64,000 bases of DNA from contig JANWWA010000008.1 in the NCBI GenBank assembly GCA_025056565.1, positions 1 through 64,000 on the forward strand, read 5' to 3'. Below are positions 42,428-55,458 of the stretch, piece after piece. Below the pieces are notes generated by a model. It was not told the origin of the DNA. It saw nothing but the letters and a program-made list of their open reading frames with translations, and made no database searches. The translations under genes and the position numbers were made by a program. Position 1 is the first letter of the stretch; each line of letters begins with the position of its first letter. Origin of the DNA: Chloroherpetonaceae bacterium. Lineage in GTDB: Bacteria; Bacteroidota; Chlorobiia; Chlorobiales; Thermochlorobacteraceae.

Positions 42428-44044
42428 TTAGAAGCCCGAGAACGGAGAGATGCGAGCGATGTTTCTTGCAATCACCTCATTCATATCGGTTTGAATGGTC
42501 ACAATCGTAAAGGTGCCAGAAGTCGTTACTGTATAAGTGTTAAGCGCAGCATTGCCCGGTGGAATCCACTCTGGCACAGTAACCAGTGTGCCCGGTGAGC
42601 CAAGCGGCATATTCGGATTGGTTTGTGTCTGTCGCTCTGGCACAGGGAAGCGAATGCCAAGATCGCTCATTCGCCGTGATTCCAAAAAGAAGATTTCTTG
42701 ACGCAGAAGGTAAAGCGTGCGCACCATGGCTTGTCGGTCATTCGGCAAGGCATTGATGTCCGCCTCTGTGAGACTGGTGCCAGAGATAAGCGGAATAGGC
42801 ACAGGCGGTGCACCTGAGCCGCGACGCAACACGAGCGAAGCCGCATAGACGGAGTCCGCATTTGTGGTAAGCCTTGCGCTGGGGCTTGGCAGCACCAGCA
42901 CACGAGAAGGTAGGTTTCCAGGACCTGGGAAAGTTGCGGCTTGTGTTAGCACTGTCAAAGCAGGACCAGCTGGGCTTGCAATTCGACGTTCGTTCTGGTC
43001 AGCAAACAGTGTAGTAGGTCGGCTTCTGGCTAAGCGCACGGCTTCTCGCATCTGGCTGCGAGCTTCGGCAAGATTGTTGTCAGAGAGCGCAATCTCTGCC
43101 AAAATCAAGTGACATTCTTCGGTTTTTAGCACGGGCAGAAAGTCTTCACCTTGGAGGCTGGCAGACTTGGGGTCAAGAAACTCCAAGCGTGGAAGGGGCT
43201 GAAAATTGTTGTCTGTGCGCCGAAGGGTATGAGCCGTGATGTCTGGCACAGGACCATTGGTGACATCGGGACGGATGTAATAGACGTAATTCGGACGGCG
43301 TGCCAGTGCCAGTTCAGCATTGCGGCGGGCTTCGGCCTTGTTGCCCAGCATTCGATGCACACGTGCCAAAGCCAGCAGGATATTCATTCGAATATCACCC
43401 AAGCCATCGCTGCGGTTATCGACAGCAGTAGAGGGCGGTGCACTTGCGGCAAAATTTTGTGCCTCTTGCAGCTTTTGTAGCGCAAATTGAAAAACTTCGC
43501 GTGAGGATTTCGGCTGCCCTCTGTCTTCAATTGGGAAGTGACTCCAGTTTTCAGCTAAGAGAATGAGTGCCATCGCTTGCAGGAAGCGAATTTCAGCGCG
43601 CTGAAGGTCAGTCGCTTGCTTGTCGTTAGGCAAAATGTCACGGAAAGCAAACTCAGCTATGGCATTGACACGCAGGAGATTAAAGTAGGCTGCACCGCCG
43701 CTCAGCGTAAGGTCAGTGCCAGTAATCAGAGACGGGGTATCCAGAAGTTGCGAAACAAACGAAGTGGCATTGGTATAGTTATCCGATGCCAGCTCCGTTA
43801 GCGTGCCTAATGCACCATAGCCAATAGTAAAGGTTCGGCGCAAGCCTGTAAGAATACCCCGTGCCGAGTTGTCAGGGTTGGCTTTGAGGTTGTCTTCCGT
43901 GACGTTGTAGTTCTGCACCCGAGTAGGGTCAAAAAGGTTGCCCGGGCGGCAGGATAAGGTCGCTGCCGACAGACCTACGACGAGCACAAAAGAGTAAGCC
44001 GTCCATTTTGAGAGATGCCTAAAAAGATGCAGTATAGCTTTCAT
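42428..44044 (-). CDS. SusD/RagB-family surface substrate-binding lipoprotein
   Basis: 538 residues from the ATG at 44044 (AAAGAGA upstream). Lipobox TLSC is seen near residue 32, and the mature start PGNLFDPT is typical. The chain is TPR-like and helical (AEIRFLQAMALILLAENW, LALARVHRMLGNKAEARRNAELAL), and an outer-membrane-binding C-terminal part ends with the LRQEIFFLESRRMSDLGIRFPV motif shared by SusD proteins. It would lie on the cell surface over the SusC barrel and bring an unknown polymer or peptide to it. The pair is 65 bases downstream of susC. Confidence 0.9.
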   Translation of the reverse strand: MKAILHLFRHLSKWTAYSFVLVVGLSAATLSCRPGNLFDPTRVQNYNVTEDNLKANPDNSARGILTGLRRTFTIGYGALGTLTELASDNYTNATSFVSQLLDTPSLITGTDLTLSGGAAYFNLLRVNAIAEFAFRDILPNDKQATDLQRAEIRFLQAMALILLAENWSHFPIEDRGQPKSSREVFQFALQKLQEAQNFAASAPPSTAVDNRSDGLGDIRMNILLALARVHRMLGNKAEARRNAELALARRPNYVYYIRPDVTNGPVPDITAHTLRRTDNNFQPLPRLEFLDPKSASLQGEDFLPVLKTEECHLILAEIALSDNNLAEARSQMREAVRLARSRPTTLFADQNERRIASPAGPALTVLTQAATFPGPGNLPSRVLVLPSPSARLTTNADSVYAASLVLRRGSGAPPVPIPLISGTSLTEADINALPNDRQAMVRTLYLLRQEIFFLESRRMSDLGIRFPVPERQTQTNPNMPLGSPGTLVTVPEWIPPGNAALNTYTVTTSGTFTIVTIQTDMNEVIARNIARISPFSGF

Positions 44045-44109
44045 GTCTCTTTTGCAAGTTAAAGTTTTGGGTTGCATTCATTCCAAGTGCGCGTAGCCAA
44101 GCGCCTTGC

Positions 44110-47049
44110 TTAGAGATTGACATCAATGCCAATTCGGAATTGGCGTGGGTTGCTGATTGTGCCGCCCACAATACCGCCTACATTAAGCCCACGTCCCTCA
44201 CGGATAAATTGCGTCTCTGGGTCAACTTCAGGGTGTGCCATAATGACCAGCGGATTTCGCACCGACGCCGAAAGCGTGATGCCTGAGAAGAGATTACCAA
44301 AGAGTGCGCGAGGCACACGGTAACGAATGCTGATTTCTCGGAACTTGACCCAGCTACCATCAACCAGAAGGCTCACAGATTGTGGGTCGCGTGGGTAGAT
44401 CGCATTGTTGGTAAGTGGGTTGCGGATGAGTGATTCGCCAATTTCAGGATAAACTGGATAGGTCGTTTCGCCAGAGCCAGCCTCGACCACGCGGAAGCCA
44501 AAGGCGTTCACTTGGCGACGAGCACGCCATTGATTGAGCAGCTGCGCACCTAAGGCATACTCAACCAGCGCACTGACACTCAGGTCACGGAAAATGGTCA
44601 TATCAAGACCAAACGCACCAAAGCTGGAAGGCACCGGCGAGCCACGCAAATCCAAATCGAAGCTACCGCGCCAAACGCCATCTGGGTCAGGACGAGGCAC
44701 ATTGACGCGAAGCACTCCGATTGGGTAGCCTTGTTCAGCACGCGTCTGCGCATATGCGAACCCACCAACCGCAAATGGTGCAGAGCCACCAAGGTCAGTA
44801 AGACGGTTGTAAAGGGTGGCGTAAGATGCACGCACACTGAGGTCAAAGTTCTGCTCACGAATCACATTGGCTTTGACAGAGAGTTCAATGCCAGCGTTTT
44901 CAATTTTGCCGACATTGGTCTGCTGTGCAGCAATAAAACCAGATGCAGGGTCTTGGAAGACCGAGAAGAATGAATTGGTGGTCTCTTGGCGATACCAGTT
45001 GAACTCAACGGACACGCGGTCTTGCAGAAGCGACAGCTCCGTGCCAAACTCAAGCGAAGTGGTAATCGCAGGCTTCAGCTCACGGTTGCCAAAATTTGCA
45101 TATGTGATGGTAACATCGCCCAGATATGGGTTAATGGCAAAGGTGCGGTCACGTAGAAAAGGTGGTGGAAATTCGCCCGCGCTGCCGAAAGAGCCTCTGA
45201 GCTTGACGCTCGTGAGAAATTCCCGCAGCACATCAGGATAGAAGGCTTCTTCTGAGACATTCCACGCAATGCCGATTTTCGGATAAGGCAAGTAAGTGAT
45301 GTCTTGACCAAAGGCAGTGCTTCCATCAATGCGCAAGCCTAAGTCAATGAAGATGCGATCGTTTATGCCAATGATAGGGTTGATAAACACGCCACCCGTA
45401 AATAGCTCAGAGATAATTTCGCTAGCAGTGATAACTGCGGCGTTGTCAAAATCGCGTGTGCCCGGCGCAATTTGAGAACCTTGCGCCGACACCTCGCGCG
45501 TCTCTTGCCTAAAGCCCTGAAAACCAAATGCAACTTGTGCACTAATCGGTCCTAATTCAGGTAGCTTGTAGTTGCCTGTGTATGCCAGCGTGATTTGCGT
45601 AAAGTCGCGTGAGCTGCGACTAATAGAGCCGAGTGGGCCGAAAGCCTCACCGGGATTGACAGGGATAATGTCGCGTGCTTCATTGTAGCGGTAATCTACG
45701 CCAACTGTGAAGCGATTTGTAAACTCCCTAAAAGGAGCATAGTTAAAGTTCAGCGTGGTGATAGAGCGTGTAACTTGCTCGGAGAAGTCTGGAATGAGCC
45801 ACTGCTGAAAGAGACTATCTTGCACAAAGCGTAAGCGTTGCGGGGTGCTCACATCTAAGCCACGCACAACGCCGAGCACATATGGATCCAAGCGCGCTTC
45901 GGTTTCAATGGAGTTGTAAGCATTGAAGGCGTTGTTAAGCAAGAGGCTGCCAAATTGTGTGCGAGTGAGGCTTGTAGAAATCTCCACATCTGCCTTGTCA
46001 GAGGCAATCGCTTTCAAGCCAGCGGCAACATTGAAAGCTCGGTCAGGCACGCGGTCGCCAGTCACAATGCCACGTGAGTCTTGCAACTTCCCATTGATGT
46101 TGTAGCTGAGGGCTTCACTGCCACCAGTGACACCCAAGCGATACTGCTGGAAGAAGGCATTTTGGTAATAAGCCTCCCGCAGGTAATCAGTGTAGAGCCA
46201 ACGCAACTCAGGCGTATCAGCGCCTGCGACAATACCTACGTTCCACTTGGCTTCGCCCGCAGCGCCTTTCTTGGTGAAGATTTGAATGACACCGTTTGCC
46301 CCATCGGAGCCATAGAGAGTAGAAGCGGCACCGCCTTTGATGATTTCAATACGCTCAATGTTGTCACCGACAAGCAAGTCTGCCAAGGCAGAGCTAACCT
46401 GTCCGCCCCGACCAAATGCACCAGCAAAGTTGTCCCCGTTGTCAACGCGCACGCCATCGACATAAATCACAGGGTTAGTGCTGTTCAAGGCACTCTTCAC
46501 GCCGCGTGTCTGGATGCGTGCACCGACGCCCGGCACGCCCGAAGGCAGCTGAGCCGTCAGTCCTGGCACATTGCCTTGAAGAAGCTGGTCAATAGACTTG
46601 GTCGGCGAGCCAGTGATTCTGTCTGAGCTGATAAATTCGACAGCGGTTGTTAGCTTTCGCTTCTCTGTGGCAACGCCTTGTCCTGTAACCACAAGCTCGT
46701 CAGCTTGCACCGCAGAGGGAACAAGCTCGAAGTCCACTTGGGCACTTGCACCAGCCGACACAGTTACATTCTTTGAGACACTGCGATATCCGACATAGCG
46801 TGCAACCAGCACATATTCGCCGGGCTGCAGACGGCGTAAGGTGTATTGACCGTCAATGTTTGTGGCGGCGCCAATTTTGGTATCACGTATAAAAACCTGC
46901 GCGCCGACAAGCGGCTCTTTGGTAAATGCATCAATGACTTTACCTTTAATTTCGCCAGTTGTCGTTTGCGCTGACGCCATCTGTGCAAACATCAAGGTAA
47001 GTAAGCTTGTCAAAAAGAGACTTGCTATTCGTAAGGCGGCGTGCTTCAT
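44110..47049 (-). CDS. SusC/RagA-family TonB-dependent outer-membrane transporter
   Basis: 979 residues. The signal peptide (about 1-28) is followed by a carboxypeptidase-regulatory-like domain (GEIKGKVIDAFTKEPLVGAQVFI), the plug with VIYVDGVRVDNGD and the ERIEIIKGGAASTLYGSDGANGVIQI motif, and a 22-strand barrel ending in aromatic-rich RQFRIGIDVNL. It imports large substrates with energy from TonB. AAAGGAGC lies about 6 bases before the ATG. No glycosidase, sulfatase or protease gene is next to it, so the substrate cannot be told. A palindrome lies 57 bases upstream. Confidence 0.94.
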   Translation of the reverse strand: MKHAALRIASLFLTSLLTLMFAQMASAQTTTGEIKGKVIDAFTKEPLVGAQVFIRDTKIGAATNIDGQYTLRRLQPGEYVLVARYVGYRSVSKNVTVSAGASAQVDFELVPSAVQADELVVTGQGVATEKRKLTTAVEFISSDRITGSPTKSIDQLLQGNVPGLTAQLPSGVPGVGARIQTRGVKSALNSTNPVIYVDGVRVDNGDNFAGAFGRGGQVSSALADLLVGDNIERIEIIKGGAASTLYGSDGANGVIQIFTKKGAAGEAKWNVGIVAGADTPELRWLYTDYLREAYYQNAFFQQYRLGVTGGSEALSYNINGKLQDSRGIVTGDRVPDRAFNVAAGLKAIASDKADVEISTSLTRTQFGSLLLNNAFNAYNSIETEARLDPYVLGVVRGLDVSTPQRLRFVQDSLFQQWLIPDFSEQVTRSITTLNFNYAPFREFTNRFTVGVDYRYNEARDIIPVNPGEAFGPLGSISRSSRDFTQITLAYTGNYKLPELGPISAQVAFGFQGFRQETREVSAQGSQIAPGTRDFDNAAVITASEIISELFTGGVFINPIIGINDRIFIDLGLRIDGSTAFGQDITYLPYPKIGIAWNVSEEAFYPDVLREFLTSVKLRGSFGSAGEFPPPFLRDRTFAINPYLGDVTITYANFGNRELKPAITTSLEFGTELSLLQDRVSVEFNWYRQETTNSFFSVFQDPASGFIAAQQTNVGKIENAGIELSVKANVIREQNFDLSVRASYATLYNRLTDLGGSAPFAVGGFAYAQTRAEQGYPIGVLRVNVPRPDPDGVWRGSFDLDLRGSPVPSSFGAFGLDMTIFRDLSVSALVEYALGAQLLNQWRARRQVNAFGFRVVEAGSGETTYPVYPEIGESLIRNPLTNNAIYPRDPQSVSLLVDGSWVKFREISIRYRVPRALFGNLFSGITLSASVRNPLVIMAHPEVDPETQFIREGRGLNVGGIVGGTISNPRQFRIGIDVNL

Positions 47050-49023: not shown

Positions 49024-51033
49024 ATGCACACTAAAAAAGTAATAAGCAGGTTGGCACTGCTTGTGCTCAGTGCCGTTACGCTATGCTGCACTGCGCTGCC
49101 GACGGTATCTGAACGCAGTTCGTCTGGTGCACTGAGCGTTTCGCCGTATTACCGCACGACTCTAAAACTGCCATACCGAGAAGCTGGGCTTTCAGACCGA
49201 GAAGCGGCTGCCCATCTCTTAGATCGCTTTGCATTTGGTGCACGCCCAGGTGAAGTCGATGCAGTCGTACAAATGGGCGTGGAAAAGTGGTTGGAGCAGC
49301 AATTAGAGGCAAGGCAGAAAAGCACAAAGTTAGACGAAAAATTAGCCCAATTTCCTGCGCTCGCAATGAGCAATGCTGAGATTCTGAACACTTATCCTAA
49401 CCCGGGGCTGCTCCTTGCCCAAGCTTACCGTGAAGGCTTGATTTCTCAAAGGGATACGGCAAATCGAGCTGAGCTGCGCCGAAAGATATTAGGGCTGTAT
49501 CGCAAAGAGGGCGTGCGCCCGCAGCGAGAACTCTTGGACATATTGCGCACGCAAAAGATTCTGCGCGCCGTCTACAGCGAAAATCAGCTCGAGGAAGTGC
49601 TCACAGACTTTTGGTTCAATCACTTCAATGTGTCCATCACAGATAACAGAGCAAGGGCATTTGTGCTGAGCTACGAGCGTGATGCGATTCGACCCAATGC
49701 CTTAGGAAAGTTTCGCACACTCTTAGGCGCGACGGCTAAACACCCTGCTATGCTGCTCTACTTGGATAACGCGCAGTCAACTGCTGCAGAAGGCGCGTCC
49801 ACGACACTTTCACAACAGATGCGGCAAAGCCCACTCTTTGCACATCGGCGGCAACGAGCGATGGTAGAACGAAAAGCAGAAATGAAAGCCATGCAAGACA
49901 AGCTGCCAGATGCTGTGCAGAGACGCTTCCCAAAACGTGGCATCAATGAAAACTATGCACGAGAGCTGATGGAACTCCACACGCTTGGTGTGGAAGGAGG
50001 GTACACGCAAAAAGACGTGGTGGAAGTGGCGCGTGCTTTTACGGGCTGGACAGTTGCGCCACGAGGTAAGCGTGCTGAACCGTTTCACACGCGTATTGAG
50101 CAAGCAAAAGCACTGGGTTTCCTCGAAGAAGGTGACTTCCTTTTCCGACCTGATATGCACGATGCGGGCGAAAAAGTGATTTTAGGCACAGTCTTCCCAG
50201 CAGGTGGTGGCAAAGAAGAAGGCGAAAGAGTGCTTGATATACTGGCGTCGCATCCCTCAACTGCTCGCTTTATCTCAACTAAGCTGGCAAGGCGGTTCGT
50301 TTCAGACTCGCCGCCCAAGTCGCTCATTGAGAAACTGACAAAGGCTTTTCTTGAAACTGATGGTGATATACGGGCAATGGTGCGCACGATGGCTGAATCA
50401 CCAGAGTTTTGGAGCAAAGAAGCGCGCCGTGCAAAAATCAAATCCCCCTTTGAGCTGACGGTCAGTGCTTTGCGCGCAATCGGCGCAGAAGTCGAACACA
50501 CACGCGACCTTGCACGGTGGATTGAACGGCAAGGACAACCTCTTTATGCCTGCCAAGCCCCAACAGGCTACCCCGACAGTGCAGCCGCATGGGTCAATGC
50601 AGGGGCACTGCTAAATCGAATGAATTTTGGCTTGCAATTAGCGTTAGGCAGAATTCAGGGCATCTCATTCGACCTCTTAGCACTCAATGGCTACCATGAG
50701 CCAGAATCGCTGGAGGACGCACTGCGGGCTTACGCTGCACGGCTTCTGCCAGAACGCGACCATAGTGAGACGATTCGGCGGCTTCTACCACTTTTGCAGC
50801 AGCCCGACTTTGCGGAACAACTCTCCAAGGTAGTGCCTAATATGCCCATGCCGCGCTTTGAGCGAAACGGTATGAAGTGGCGCGATGAAACCGTAGTTCA
50901 GGACTGGATAAGTGAGGAAACCGATGAGAGCCAGATCGCACCAGCGGAAAGCGGCGAAAACCGTCCAACAGCCAGTGCAGTAGCAAAAGTAGTGGGGCTC
51001 ATCTTAGGCTCGCCTGAATTTCAACGGCGGTAG
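49024..51033 (+). CDS. DUF1800 domain-containing exported protein
   Basis: 669 residues. A signal-like start (LALLVLSAVTLCC) carries Cys residues that could be lipidated. The DUF1800 body begins EAAAHLLDRFAFGARPGEVDAVVQMGVEKWL and contains LTDFWFNHFNV, RGINENYARELMELHTLGV and YTQKDVVEVARAFTGWTV, all family hallmarks. The end (QDWISEETDE..., SPEFQRR) completes it. DUF1800 genes are nearly always followed by DUF1501 genes, as here (next start 27 bases later). Function of the pair is unknown; export is expected. Confidence 0.92.
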   Translation: MHTKKVISRLALLVLSAVTLCCTALPTVSERSSSGALSVSPYYRTTLKLPYREAGLSDREAAAHLLDRFAFGARPGEVDAVVQMGVEKWLEQQLEARQKSTKLDEKLAQFPALAMSNAEILNTYPNPGLLLAQAYREGLISQRDTANRAELRRKILGLYRKEGVRPQRELLDILRTQKILRAVYSENQLEEVLTDFWFNHFNVSITDNRARAFVLSYERDAIRPNALGKFRTLLGATAKHPAMLLYLDNAQSTAAEGASTTLSQQMRQSPLFAHRRQRAMVERKAEMKAMQDKLPDAVQRRFPKRGINENYARELMELHTLGVEGGYTQKDVVEVARAFTGWTVAPRGKRAEPFHTRIEQAKALGFLEEGDFLFRPDMHDAGEKVILGTVFPAGGGKEEGERVLDILASHPSTARFISTKLARRFVSDSPPKSLIEKLTKAFLETDGDIRAMVRTMAESPEFWSKEARRAKIKSPFELTVSALRAIGAEVEHTRDLARWIERQGQPLYACQAPTGYPDSAAAWVNAGALLNRMNFGLQLALGRIQGISFDLLALNGYHEPESLEDALRAYAARLLPERDHSETIRRLLPLLQQPDFAEQLSKVVPNMPMPRFERNGMKWRDETVVQDWISEETDESQIAPAESGENRPTASAVAKVVGLILGSPEFQRR

Positions 51034-51059
51034 TTTGGGGAACAGCAAACTTGAGGGAT

Positions 51060-52313
51060 ATGCTGACACGAAGGGCATTTCTAAAAACGACAGGACTTGC
51101 CTTGCTATCAATTGGGTGGGATAGCACCCCGCTTTTTTTGAAGCGAGCTGTAGCAGCTGTCTCAAGCAGTATGCCGCGCAGGGTGCTGGTGACTATTTTC
51201 CAGCGCGGCGGAATGGATGGCGTGATGGCCGTGACACCCTACACGGATAGCTATGTGCAGCAACTGCGACCGCATCTGGCACTGGCACTGCCCGACAAGA
51301 GCAGTGATGCACTGCTGGATTTGGACGGGCGCTTCGGACTGCATCCAGCATTTCAACCGCTCTTGCCTTTTTTCAAGGAGCGGCAGTTAGCAATTGTGCA
51401 CGGTGTCGGCTCGCCCAATCCTACTCGCTCACATTTTGACCAGCAAGATTATATGGAATCTGGCACGCCTGAAAGAAAAGGCACACCTGATGGTTGGCTG
51501 AATCGGCTTGCCAGAGAATTAAGCAAAGAAACCACACCATTTCGAGCAGTAGCGCTTACCCGAATACTGCCACGCGCGCTTTATGGTGCGGCACCTGCAC
51601 TGGCAATTCCAAGCCTTGCTGAGTTTGGCTTAAACTTGCCCAGCGCAAAAGAAGTGGCTGCAGCAGCAGAAGTCGGCTTTGAGGCACTCTACGAGCAAAC
51701 TTCTCAGCCACTTCTGCGCAGCACTGGCAAGGAGAGCTTTGAGGCGATGCAAATCCTGCAAAAGCTGGATATAAGGTCATATCGACCAGAATTTGGAGCC
51801 ATCTATCCACGCACGCCGCTCGGCAAGAGCTTAGAGCAAATCGCACAGCTGATTAAAGCCGATGTTGGCGTAGAAATTGCATTTGCTGAATCAACAGGTT
51901 GGGATACGCACACGCAGCAAGGCACAGTGCGAGGACGCTTCGCCCAACAAGCACGCGACCTGTCACAGTCTATTGCAGCATTCTGGACAGACCTTCGGCG
52001 CTATCAAGACCGTATCACGCTGCTCACCATGACGGAGTTTGGGAGAACGCTCGCCGAAAATGGCTCTGGCGGCACAGACCACGGACGCGCTTCCTGCCTA
52101 TTTGTGCTCTCAGCCTTAGCCGATGGCGGAAAAGTGCACGGCACAGTGCCAACACTTGCACCTGAAAACTTAGAAGATGGGCGCGACTTGCCCGTTACCA
52201 CAGACTTTCGCTCTGTTTTTGCCGAAGTAGCAGGCACGGTGTTCGGCATAAAGGACGACACAAAGATTTTTCCAACTTGGACAGGCAAGCGAATACCGCT
52301 GATGAAAAGCTAA
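51060..52313 (+). CDS. DUF1501 domain-containing Tat-exported protein
   Basis: 417 residues from the ATG at 51060 (TTG at 51051 is possible and has a better ribosome site, GGGGA). The Tat signal is TRRAFLKTTGLALLSIG. DUF1501 belongs to the alkaline-phosphatase/sulfatase fold; segments seen are IFQRGGMDGVMAVTPY, VHGVGSPNPTRSHFDQQDYMESG, GWDTHTQQG, MTEFGRT and GGTDHGRASCLFVL. The putative metal ligands (DxH and TDHG) are present. Its substrate is unknown. Twin-arginine export folds it before transport, as expected for a metalloprotein. It pairs with the DUF1800 gene. Confidence 0.92.
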   Translation: MLTRRAFLKTTGLALLSIGWDSTPLFLKRAVAAVSSSMPRRVLVTIFQRGGMDGVMAVTPYTDSYVQQLRPHLALALPDKSSDALLDLDGRFGLHPAFQPLLPFFKERQLAIVHGVGSPNPTRSHFDQQDYMESGTPERKGTPDGWLNRLARELSKETTPFRAVALTRILPRALYGAAPALAIPSLAEFGLNLPSAKEVAAAAEVGFEALYEQTSQPLLRSTGKESFEAMQILQKLDIRSYRPEFGAIYPRTPLGKSLEQIAQLIKADVGVEIAFAESTGWDTHTQQGTVRGRFAQQARDLSQSIAAFWTDLRRYQDRITLLTMTEFGRTLAENGSGGTDHGRASCLFVLSALADGGKVHGTVPTLAPENLEDGRDLPVTTDFRSVFAEVAGTVFGIKDDTKIFPTWTGKRIPLMKS

Positions 52314-53613: not shown

Positions 53614-54333
53614 TTAGCAAAGTGCGACAATCAGATCTCCATTGTCGTCTTTGCTAAACTCAAAAGCTCTAAGGTCGCTCTGTGCAGGGGGCGCGATCAC
53701 CCTGCCTTGCTGCGTAAACTGTGAGCCATGGCAGCGGCAGGTCCAAATACCCTCTTGAAACACCATATTGCTGCAGCCAGCGTGTGTGCAGAAGCGAGAA
53801 AGCACAATGAATGATTCACCGAAGCGGGTGATACTTAGGTCAGAGCGAAAGTCCGTCGGCTGTGCAACTTGGCCGTCGTAGTTAAGAAACAGTGCTTCAC
53901 CAGTTTGTGGTAGAATAGAGCGAGACACGCGAATAGAAAGGAGAGCAGGCGAGCTTTCTGGCGAAAAGTCAGATTCGTTGCCATTATGGTCAAGCGCTGT
54001 TACTTTGTAATACCAGATGTCGCCGGCACGCACCGTTCTATCTTGCCACATGGTTTGCGAGGCATTCAGATGAGCAATCGGCTCAAAGCCGCGAGCTGGG
54101 GCAGCGCTACGGTAGAGCCTGTATCCTGCCAAGTCCATCAACGGTGTGCCATCGCGATTGGTGGTAACCGCCGGCCACGACACAGTAATTGCAAAAAGTG
54201 ACCCTTTTACCGCAATCGCCGCAGGTGCAGCAGGAGGAAGCGTATCTAAGCTGGTGGTGGGGCTAGGGCAACCGCATAGAGCCATACTAAATGCAAGTGC
54301 CGTAGAGTGCGTCAAAAAGTCACGTCGGTTCAT
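53614..54333 (-). CDS. FN3-Rieske [2Fe-2S] Tat lipoprotein
   Basis: 239 residues. The start MNRRDFL is a Tat-like twin-Arg signal ending in a lipobox LCGC (Cys22). Residues about 35-130 form a fibronectin type III domain (ITVSWPAVTT, YRLYRSA, WYYKVTALDHNGNESDFS). The C-terminal Rieske domain has ligands Cys182-Thr-His184 and Cys199-x-x-His202 (CTHAGC, CRCHGS), and Cys187 and Cys201 match the disulfide pair of bc1/b6f-type Rieske proteins. A membrane-anchored electron carrier outside the cytoplasm is predicted. It is not the Rieske subunit of a quinol oxidase complex in standard layout (no N-terminal helix of that type, no cytochrome b gene nearby). Confidence 0.88.
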   Translation of the reverse strand: MNRRDFLTHSTALAFSMALCGCPSPTTSLDTLPPAAPAAIAVKGSLFAITVSWPAVTTNRDGTPLMDLAGYRLYRSAAPARGFEPIAHLNASQTMWQDRTVRAGDIWYYKVTALDHNGNESDFSPESSPALLSIRVSRSILPQTGEALFLNYDGQVAQPTDFRSDLSITRFGESFIVLSRFCTHAGCSNMVFQEGIWTCRCHGSQFTQQGRVIAPPAQSDLRAFEFSKDDNGDLIVALC

Positions 54334-54471: not shown

Positions 54472-55458
54472 TTGTCAAACGGCGCAATTGACACGCAAGA
54501 CTGGCAGCATTTAAACAAGTTGCGCGAGTGCTTCTTAGAAGGCAGAGCGGGTGAGCAAGATTACTGGTCAACTCGGCGTCTGCTGGAGCTGTATGACCAA
54601 ACCTTTGCGCAGCGCATAGCTTGGAAGTGGCAGTATGTGTTAGCAGAGCTAATGCGGCTGGGCTGGAAGTTACCAGATGCGCCGCTTCTCGATTGGGGGT
54701 GTGGCACAGGTATCGCCGCACGGGTGGTGTTGCGCACCTTCAGCATACCTCAACCGAAGCTATGGCTGTATGACCGTTCCCCACTTGCAGTAGAAGTCGC
54801 AACCAACAAAATCCGCCAAGAATATCCCAATGTGTCGATTCTACCGTTTGAAGCCCATAAGTCATATCAAGGCACCGTATTGCTCAGCCACATCATCACG
54901 GAGCTAAGTGAAGAGGCGCAGCAAGCACTGCTAACGAAGTTGCGTGAGGCGACTGCGGTGCTTTGGGTGGAGTCAGGAGATTATCGCGCCAGCCGCAAGT
55001 TGATTGATGTGCGGGAATCTTTGCGAGCAGCATTTCAAGTCGTAGCGCCCTGTACGCATCAAAGCAAGTGCGGCTTGCTTGCAGAGAAAAACAAGGTGCA
55101 TTGGTGTCATCATTTTGCAAAGCCGCCAGCCGAAGCCTTTACCGATGAGCGCTGGGCTGTGTTCAAACAGAAGTTAGGCATTGACTTATCTGATTTACCG
55201 CTGTCTTATCTGGTGTTGGATAAGCGCTCACTTTCACTACCAGCATCAGGGGTTTCTCGCATGATTGGCAGAGTGCGGCTCTACAAGGGGTATGCCTTAC
55301 TCCTCGTGTGCTCAGCCGACGGTGTAGCAGAGTATCGTTTGCAGGAACGAGAGTTGAAAGAAGCCTATCGGCAAATTAAGAAAGGGAAACTGGATACGCT
55401 GCTAAGGCTCAGCGTGGCAGAAGGCGAAATTAGGGCATTGCAAGCGATTTCAAAGTAA
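54472..55458 (+). CDS. Rsm22/METTL17-family ribosome assembly protein
   Basis: 328 residues. The methyltransferase-like SAM motif is LLDWGCGTG (about 72-80). The Rsm22 signature is PCTHQSKCGL...WCHHF (Cys194, Cys200, Cys212), and a fourth Cys in LLVCSADG (Cys280) fits the four-Cys Fe-S site reported for this family. In eukaryotes Rsm22/METTL17 is a mitochondrial small-subunit assembly factor; the bacterial role is uncertain. The first codon is a TTG at 54472; no closer ATG fits, so the start is insecure. It lies 38 bases before aroK. Confidence 0.8.
   Translation: MSNGAIDTQDWQHLNKLRECFLEGRAGEQDYWSTRRLLELYDQTFAQRIAWKWQYVLAELMRLGWKLPDAPLLDWGCGTGIAARVVLRTFSIPQPKLWLYDRSPLAVEVATNKIRQEYPNVSILPFEAHKSYQGTVLLSHIITELSEEAQQALLTKLREATAVLWVESGDYRASRKLIDVRESLRAAFQVVAPCTHQSKCGLLAEKNKVHWCHHFAKPPAEAFTDERWAVFKQKLGIDLSDLPLSYLVLDKRSLSLPASGVSRMIGRVRLYKGYALLLVCSADGVAEYRLQERELKEAYRQIKKGKLDTLLRLSVAEGEIRALQAISK

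Follow-up and report, generated by a model that had tools for sequence, protein, structure and literature searches.

The 64,000-nucleotide stretch of DNA analysed here (the window) encodes a predicted lipoprotein in which a fibronectin type III (FN3) domain is joined to a Rieske domain. The best explanation overall, to which we give a probability of about 0.38, is that this FN3-Rieske protein is a Tat-exported, lipid-anchored Rieske carrier working in a three-protein extracytoplasmic module, together with a PhoX-like lipoprotein and an imelysin/di-heme fusion protein, by the iron mechanism proposed below. Quinol-oxidising complexes and oxygenases are the main known settings of Rieske proteins, and a Rieske protein reserved for a di-heme/imelysin/phosphatase module would extend their uses; no description of such a module was found in the literature titles and abstracts searched. 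The usual neighbours of FN3-Rieske also hint that phosphatases of this kind may acquire their iron outside the inner membrane.

Domains, signal and distribution of the FN3-Rieske protein

We observed directly both the domain make-up of the protein and its conservation (Table 1). The Rieske domain matches PF00355 with E 5.1e-8 (33.2 bits against a Pfam cut-off of 20.3), its cluster ligands are C182, H184, C199 and H202, and C187 and C201 are the disulfide pair. A preliminary description of the window had reported this fusion with both ligand boxes and the Cys187/Cys201 disulfide; its residue numbers were right, and these features recur in 6/6 orthologues. The N terminus reads N-R-R-D-F-L followed by the lipobox L-C-G-C22, the motif of a Tat lipoprotein, and scores just below the cut-offs of curated Tat models. 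With the two arginines and C22 kept in 6/6 orthologues, the protein is a predicted Tat-exported lipoprotein, and the earlier suggestion of an extracytoplasmic lipoprotein Rieske electron carrier with an unusual FN3 domain is supported.

Pfam's fn3 family does not match the FN3-Rieske protein, and the best orthologue gives E 0.031 (14.9 bits against a gathering threshold of 25), because the FN3 part is too divergent. A profile of the six FN3-Rieske sequences, compared with the PDB, finds titin chains over this region (E 6e-10 and 6e-9). The AlphaFold2 model (mean pLDDT 85, pTM 0.72) has a confident beta sandwich in the same place, which Foldseek matches to titin FN3 domains with target TM-scores of 0.79-0.82; the Rieske part is matched to 9rk4 with a target TM-score of 0.71. 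Judged from these models, the N-terminal region has an FN3 fold.

The pair Ser204/Phe206 is identical in 6/6 orthologues. Kustd1480 has the same pair and a potential measured at +335 mV, as given in a passage of PMC12954380, so a high potential is expected here too; by this analogy, the FN3-Rieske cluster is likely to be suited to exchange with a high-potential c-type haem.

Table 1. Coordinates in the window of the FN3-Rieske gene and its parts
Feature	Position	Strand	Basis
FN3-Rieske lipoprotein gene, 239 aa, ATG start	53614..54333	-	ORF and sequence; orthologues in 6/9 family genomes, its own counted
Tat-type lipoprotein signal (predicted), residues 1-22 (RR3-4, F6, lipobox Cys22)	54268..54333	-	identical in 6/6 orthologues; curated Tat models just under cut-off
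FN3 domain (modelled), about residues 33-137, bounds approximate	53923..54237	-	AlphaFold2 and Foldseek; titin profile match; W53 and Y109 invariant
Rieske [2Fe-2S] domain, about residues 138-239	53617..53922	-	PF00355; structural matches 9rk4, 9rk3, 8hn2
Rieske box I CTHAGC, residues 182-187	53773..53790	-	from sequence; invariant in 6/6
Rieske box II CRCHGS, residues 199-204	53722..53739	-	from sequence; C199, C201, H202, G203 and S204 invariant in 6/6

Our order-level sample comprised 61 genomes, the window's own (G000) and 60 relatives, nine of them in the window's family. Full-length FN3-Rieske relatives occur in six of these nine: G000, G001 (62% identity to the G000 protein), G007 (50%), G005 (40%), G004 (39%) and G003 (34%), identities within the six-sequence alignment running from 33 to 61%; the family genomes G002, G006 and G008 are without the gene. 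All 6/6 orthologues share R3, R4, F6 and C22 of the signal, the disulfide pair and the four ligands, and also Ala185, Ser204 and Phe206; the FN3 part, whose absence from close homologues had been named at the outset as an objection to look for, is likewise present in every one. Across the phylum, 141 of 394 genomes match the FN3-Rieske query at E<=1e-10. Among the matches listed, the full FN3 and Rieske architecture occurs in the same six genomes only, those elsewhere covering the Rieske part alone or the FN3 part alone. In this 394-genome sample the architecture thus appears restricted to one family of hot-spring bacteria.

A scan of named-genome contigs with the single FN3-Rieske protein gave 40 pattern matches and zero relatives; with the alignment, the scan gave six loci, including those of Ca. 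Thermochlorobacter aerophilum and of three assemblies related to it. One of the six, a Lachnospiraceae locus (L118), was set aside, as it matches the short Rieske box only, inside a larger ORF. Genome G001 carries the FN3-Rieske locus twice, inverted (contigs C16 and C65), in an assembly with 13% contamination, and this is probably one locus assembled twice. In G000, a small Tat-type Rieske gene at 81 kb of contig C8 was rejected as a twin of FN3-Rieske because it is without FN3 and has other neighbours. It lies about 27 kb from the FN3-Rieske gene and is followed by a b561-like membrane protein and YceI (L036:17246-19092, that is G000:C8:81246-83092); these genes may possibly form another extracytoplasmic electron path. 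Another Tat-type small Rieske, in G010, adjoins a ferritin-like gene of Tat type (PF13668) and a further Tat-type gene without Pfam match (L109:3308-5782).

The genes beside FN3-Rieske

The adjacency and co-occurrence described here are again direct observations. In five genomes (G001, G003, G004, G005 and G007), a gene for an imelysin/di-heme fusion protein (626-664 aa) lies 3-67 bp from the FN3-Rieske gene, and next to the fusion gene lies a gene for a PhoX-like lipoprotein of about 520-540 aa; we call these two the couple. FN3-Rieske and the couple share one strand in G003 and G004, and the Rieske gene stands tail to tail with the fusion in G001, G005 and G007. The window's genome is the exception, its couple being on another contig (G000:C16:20396-23969), which is why the informative neighbours were not visible to the earlier reader. 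The preliminary description had missed the partners, which adjoin the gene in 5/6 genomes.

The three genes occur as a set in 6/9 family genomes, and the other 3/9 are without any of them, G006 having only a short di-haem gene. The chance of this 6-versus-3 pattern is 1/84 under free shuffling, a value weakened by shared descent in a family sample of nine genomes. Overall, it is well supported by gene order and co-occurrence that FN3-Rieske belongs to a module with the PhoX-like lipoprotein and the imelysin/di-heme fusion. On the other side of FN3-Rieske, G000 (window 54472-55458) and G001 have an Rsm22-like gene in common, and therefore G001 probably shows the older gene arrangement. Elsewhere in the window lie two paired genes, for DUF1800 and DUF1501 proteins, of which the latter has a twin-arginine-like start (49024-52313), and, by eye, a SusD/SusC-looking pair of lipoprotein and TonB-dependent receptor (42428-47049).

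The couple also occurs by itself. G010, from another family, has two copies of it and FN3-Rieske was not detected there; similarly, no Rieske-like gene was flagged by the FN3-Rieske profile over 42 fusion loci of other genera. The Rieske protein is therefore not essential to the couple, and from these sequences it appears as an addition confined to one family. In four genomes, similar response-regulator-type genes stand beside the couple or close to it (L105:6371-7753, L042:9213-10154, L044:9341-10285 and L106:5072-6061; two Pfam-confirmed), and the PhoX-like gene of G000 stands in divergent orientation to a type I phosphodiesterase gene (PF01663).

The PhoX-like lipoproteins of the family gave no Pfam or NCBIfam match of note in the members scanned; the Pfam check used the G001 and G004 orthologues and found no PF05787 match. 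By locus, PF05787 does not match the members of L040, L044, L148, L151 and L107 and matches that of L153 (31.1 against 24 bits, E 1.9e-7). When PhoX-like lipoproteins were aligned with the PhoX neighbours of the fusion by hhalign, the probability was 98.8%, and a Cys invariant in 20/20 PhoX-like lipoproteins fell on the Asn-Cys motif of PhoX, whose cysteine we take to be an Fe ligand. Trp480 is likewise invariant in 20/20. In Foldseek, the two PDB entries closest to the AlphaFold2 model (pLDDT 84.5, pTM 0.87) are both P. fluorescens PhoX (E about 1e-15, the third match being 5e-6); the TM-scores are modest (0.50-0.56), which makes the lipoprotein a remote PhoX relative. Searches of the PDB with alignments were weak, the 7-row alignment giving nothing useful and the 20-row alignment giving PhoX only at E 0.013, so the assignment rests on the L153 Pfam match, hhalign and Foldseek. 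By the model, the lipoprotein has the PhoX fold, and it may be a phosphatase. PhoX itself is exported by Tat and carries two Fe3+ and three Ca2+, according to a passage of PMC4223295.

The fusion protein combines, by its family matches, a CCP/MauG-type di-haem domain with an imelysin-like domain: that of G001 matches PF03150 (E 1e-46, 159.4 against 25.6 bits) and the imelysin family PF09375 (E 2e-5). Both CxxCH haem motifs are invariant in 7/7 fusion proteins. Its closest solved relatives in a PDB search are bacterial di-haem peroxidases, EfeO is among the PDB and NCBIfam matches, and the best NCBIfam models are MbnH-family and MauG, with 214.8 bits against a cut-off of 362.85. A Trp next to the haems has a role in CCP/MauG-type di-haem enzymes, and it is replaced by Tyr in all fusion sequences of the window's family and G010. 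In the imelysin GxHxxE motif, Gln stands for His (GxQxxE) in 40/40 fusion rows; imelysins of GxxxxE types are described in part of PMC3143127, and for EfeM, a protein made of imelysin only, a passage of PMC9174327 gives a binding of about 1.5 Fe per molecule.

Phosphatase partners and export routes across the phylum

In the sample of 394 genomes, the PhoX-like lipoprotein was found in 35 and the fusion (at E<=1e-100) in 59, all 35 lying within the 59. Their coordinates show the fusion as the immediate neighbour of the PhoX-like lipoprotein gene, on the same strand, in 35/35 genomes, and 14 of these couple loci, outside the order, were read gene by gene. A locus was also examined for every one of the other 24 fusion genomes, in which the PhoX-like lipoprotein was not found. 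A PhoX (PF05787) gene adjoins the fusion or lies one gene away in 17 of them, and a calcineurin/purple-acid-type phosphatase gene is adjacent in two (G129 and G258); beside the fusion of three others (G071, G159 and G390) no phosphatase gene was seen, and the remaining two loci (G146 and G382) are cut by contig ends. Altogether, an iron-phosphatase-type gene stands beside the fusion in 54/59 genomes. Twelve of the 17 fusion-linked PhoX were confirmed individually with Pfam, and all 17 genomes are positive in the PF05787 genome scan. Extra fusion copies exist in G077 (PhoX adjoining), G218 (PhoX about 6 kb off), G254 (none) and G336 (masked). Weak PhoX-profile matches at L210 and L213 (4.8e-8 and 4.3e-6) are other kinds of protein and were not counted as PhoX.

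PhoX uses Fe3+ and purple acid phosphatases contain a ferric ion, according to parts of PMC4223295. The purple-acid-type neighbours are a strong hint, at the level of gene content, that the fusion may serve iron phosphatases in general. Two such genes adjoining the fusion lie at L171:1845-5198 and L178:4905-6491 and are outside the PhoX family. In a tree of the fusion (49 rows, 13 open forks; L107, a cut fusion under the 450-aa floor, and L041, a duplicate contig of G001, omitted), partner types are mixed between clades, PhoX-like and PhoX labels each falling in two parts, and the two purple-acid rows have long branches and an unsure placement. The phosphatase partners of the fusion therefore probably changed more than once, with tree support that is uneven. 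A leucine-rich-repeat-like gene of about 300 aa, recognised by eye, accompanies PhoX and the fusion at L163, L172, L174, L175, L176, L177, L214, L215 and L217; its product is possibly a third partner.

The export signals of the two groups of PhoX differ, and this contrast was observed directly. PhoX was found in 43/345 genomes scanned with PF05787, and in 19 of them it lies at the fusion (18 adjoining or one gene away, and G218 at about 6 kb). None of these 19 has a twin-arginine motif, whereas among the 24 PhoX away from the fusion 18 have RR, three have RK in the same place and three have neither (G086, G161 and G308). The PhoX-like lipoproteins have RR in 0/20, and both kinds occur in G127, where the PhoX-like neighbour of the fusion has no RR and a separate PhoX carries it. 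A Fisher test of RR against fusion linkage gives p 2e-9 with RK taken as Tat and 2e-7 with RK not taken as Tat, values that overstate the contrast because the rows are not independent and reflect largely two PhoX clades (read from scores, without a PhoX tree) and tails of the type IX secretion system (T9SS). T9SS-tailed proteins require Sec export; T9SS tails are present in 12/12 fusion-linked PhoX scanned, 10 being over the cut-off of the tail model and the rest under it. A passage of PMC4223295 speculates that ferric phosphatases outside the cytoplasm cannot depend on periplasmic iron, external iron being scarce, and that PhoX and PhoD therefore receive their iron in the cytoplasm before leaving by Tat. 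The couple would mark Sec-exported exceptions to this published idea, and the question becomes testable.

A proposed mechanism, its alternatives and related systems

From these observations we infer the electron-transfer partner of FN3-Rieske and the direction of transfer, the delivery of iron and the phosphatase activity of the module. The Rieske cluster would be made in the cytoplasm, as expected from Rieske biology, and hence the protein would be exported by Tat, with its FN3 domain, placed between lipid anchor and cluster domain, serving for spacing or docking. The PhoX-like partner would be exported unfolded by Sec, so we propose that its ferric site is built outside the inner membrane. 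There, the imelysin part of the fusion may bind iron and the di-heme part may set its redox state, the fusion thus supplying or oxidising the iron of the phosphatase. FN3-Rieske would connect the respiratory chain with the di-heme enzyme by electron transfer, its most likely task being to feed or prime the high-potential haem of that enzyme; that it donates to the di-heme centre, like the donors of bacterial peroxidases, is our guess by analogy.

For the fusion, the best explanation is a redox enzyme that handles iron on behalf of phosphatases exported without metal. It is tempting to go further and to see here an undescribed machinery in which the fusion loads and oxidises the iron of Sec-exported phosphatases outside the inner membrane, its clients being the PhoX-like, PhoX and purple-acid types, and, in relatives of Thermochlorobacter, FN3-Rieske provides the link to respiration; this broader proposal is tentative and must be regarded as rather doubtful. 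Tat-exported PhoX, presumably loaded in the cytoplasm, would not need such a machinery.

Since the closest solved relatives of the fusion are peroxidases and both haem motifs are present, the fusion could instead be a plain peroxide-removing cytochrome c peroxidase, with FN3-Rieske as its donor in place of a c-type cytochrome and the phosphatase linkage incidental or co-regulated. We consider this unlikely, as a linkage in 54/59 genomes that spans three phosphatase types is hard to call incidental, and neither a fused imelysin domain nor the change of the haem-side Trp to Tyr is expected in a plain peroxidase. The MbnH-family and MauG models, together with the invariant Trp480 of the PhoX-like partner, would agree with a di-heme enzyme that oxidises a side chain of that partner in the manner of MauG or MbnH, FN3-Rieske giving the electrons for oxygen activation. 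However, the fusion scores well under the curated cut-off, and its changing partners fit a need for metal better than the modification of a single residue, which makes this reading quite improbable.

A respiratory role, either as a spare bc subunit or as a shuttle from the bc complex to a terminal acceptor or reaction centre, would suit a Rieske domain over its Pfam cut-off with a predicted high potential, yet the protein is far under the bc-type equivalog models (TIGR01416, 46 against 97.4 bits; NF045928, 31 against 250 bits). As the preliminary description had noted, there is no cytochrome b nearby: tblastn with two cytochrome b queries found none in the window or in the loci of the five relatives, the positive controls being found. 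We therefore rejected membership of a bc complex. Moreover, G000 has two other Rieske genes (on C16 and C11), each adjoining a cytochrome b gene, and the lipobox Cys of FN3-Rieske is kept in 6/6, so a respiratory role in either form also has a low probability. The early idea of a quinone link finds no support, cytochrome b being absent from 6/6 loci and Ala185, which follows the first ligand pair in 6/6 orthologues, standing where three aligned PDB Rieske sequences have Leu. Finally, as the cluster is predicted from sequence, one could imagine an FN3-bearing surface protein whose Rieske domain has lost it; this is extremely improbable, because the ligands, the disulfide pair, the potential-tuning Ser and the Tat motif are kept in 6/6 orthologues, down to 33% identity.

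An iron-supplying module with a dedicated Rieske carrier would differ from each of the systems that it resembles. The small Tat-type Rieske proteins of Bacteroidota (about 160-180 aa), which are the best Rieske-only matches of the FN3-Rieske profile, share with FN3-Rieske a twin-arginine-type start, often a lipobox, and the Rieske domain, but they are without the FN3 domain, and 24 of their loci (about 3 kb each) contain no PhoX-like or imelysin/di-heme gene. The closest solved Rieske domains are those of Kuste4569 (9rk4) and Kustd1480 (9rk3), the latter with the Ser/Phe pair of FN3-Rieske; unlike FN3-Rieske, both are described in part of PMC12954380 as subunits of Rieske/cytochrome b complexes. 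The EfeUOB system pairs an imelysin (EfeO) with a haem peroxidase (EfeB), as the fusion does within one protein, and fusions of imelysin-like and EfeB-like domains have already been described as a small group, according to a passage of PMC3143127. In contrast to EfeUOB, the couple has a phosphatase-type gene and no permease gene recognised by eye, and its fusion carries GxQxxE, not GxHxxE. MbnH acts on MbnP, and in MauG and MbnH/MbnP, as in the couple, an enzyme of the di-haem family is coded beside its presumed target; however, the enzyme of the couple has a fused imelysin and a replaced haem-side Trp, and its target would be PhoX-like. PhoX (3zwu, 4a9v) has the same fold as the PhoX-like partner, with the aligned Cys, but the partner is a Sec-type lipoprotein, whereas PhoX is described in part of PMC4223295 as a Tat substrate.
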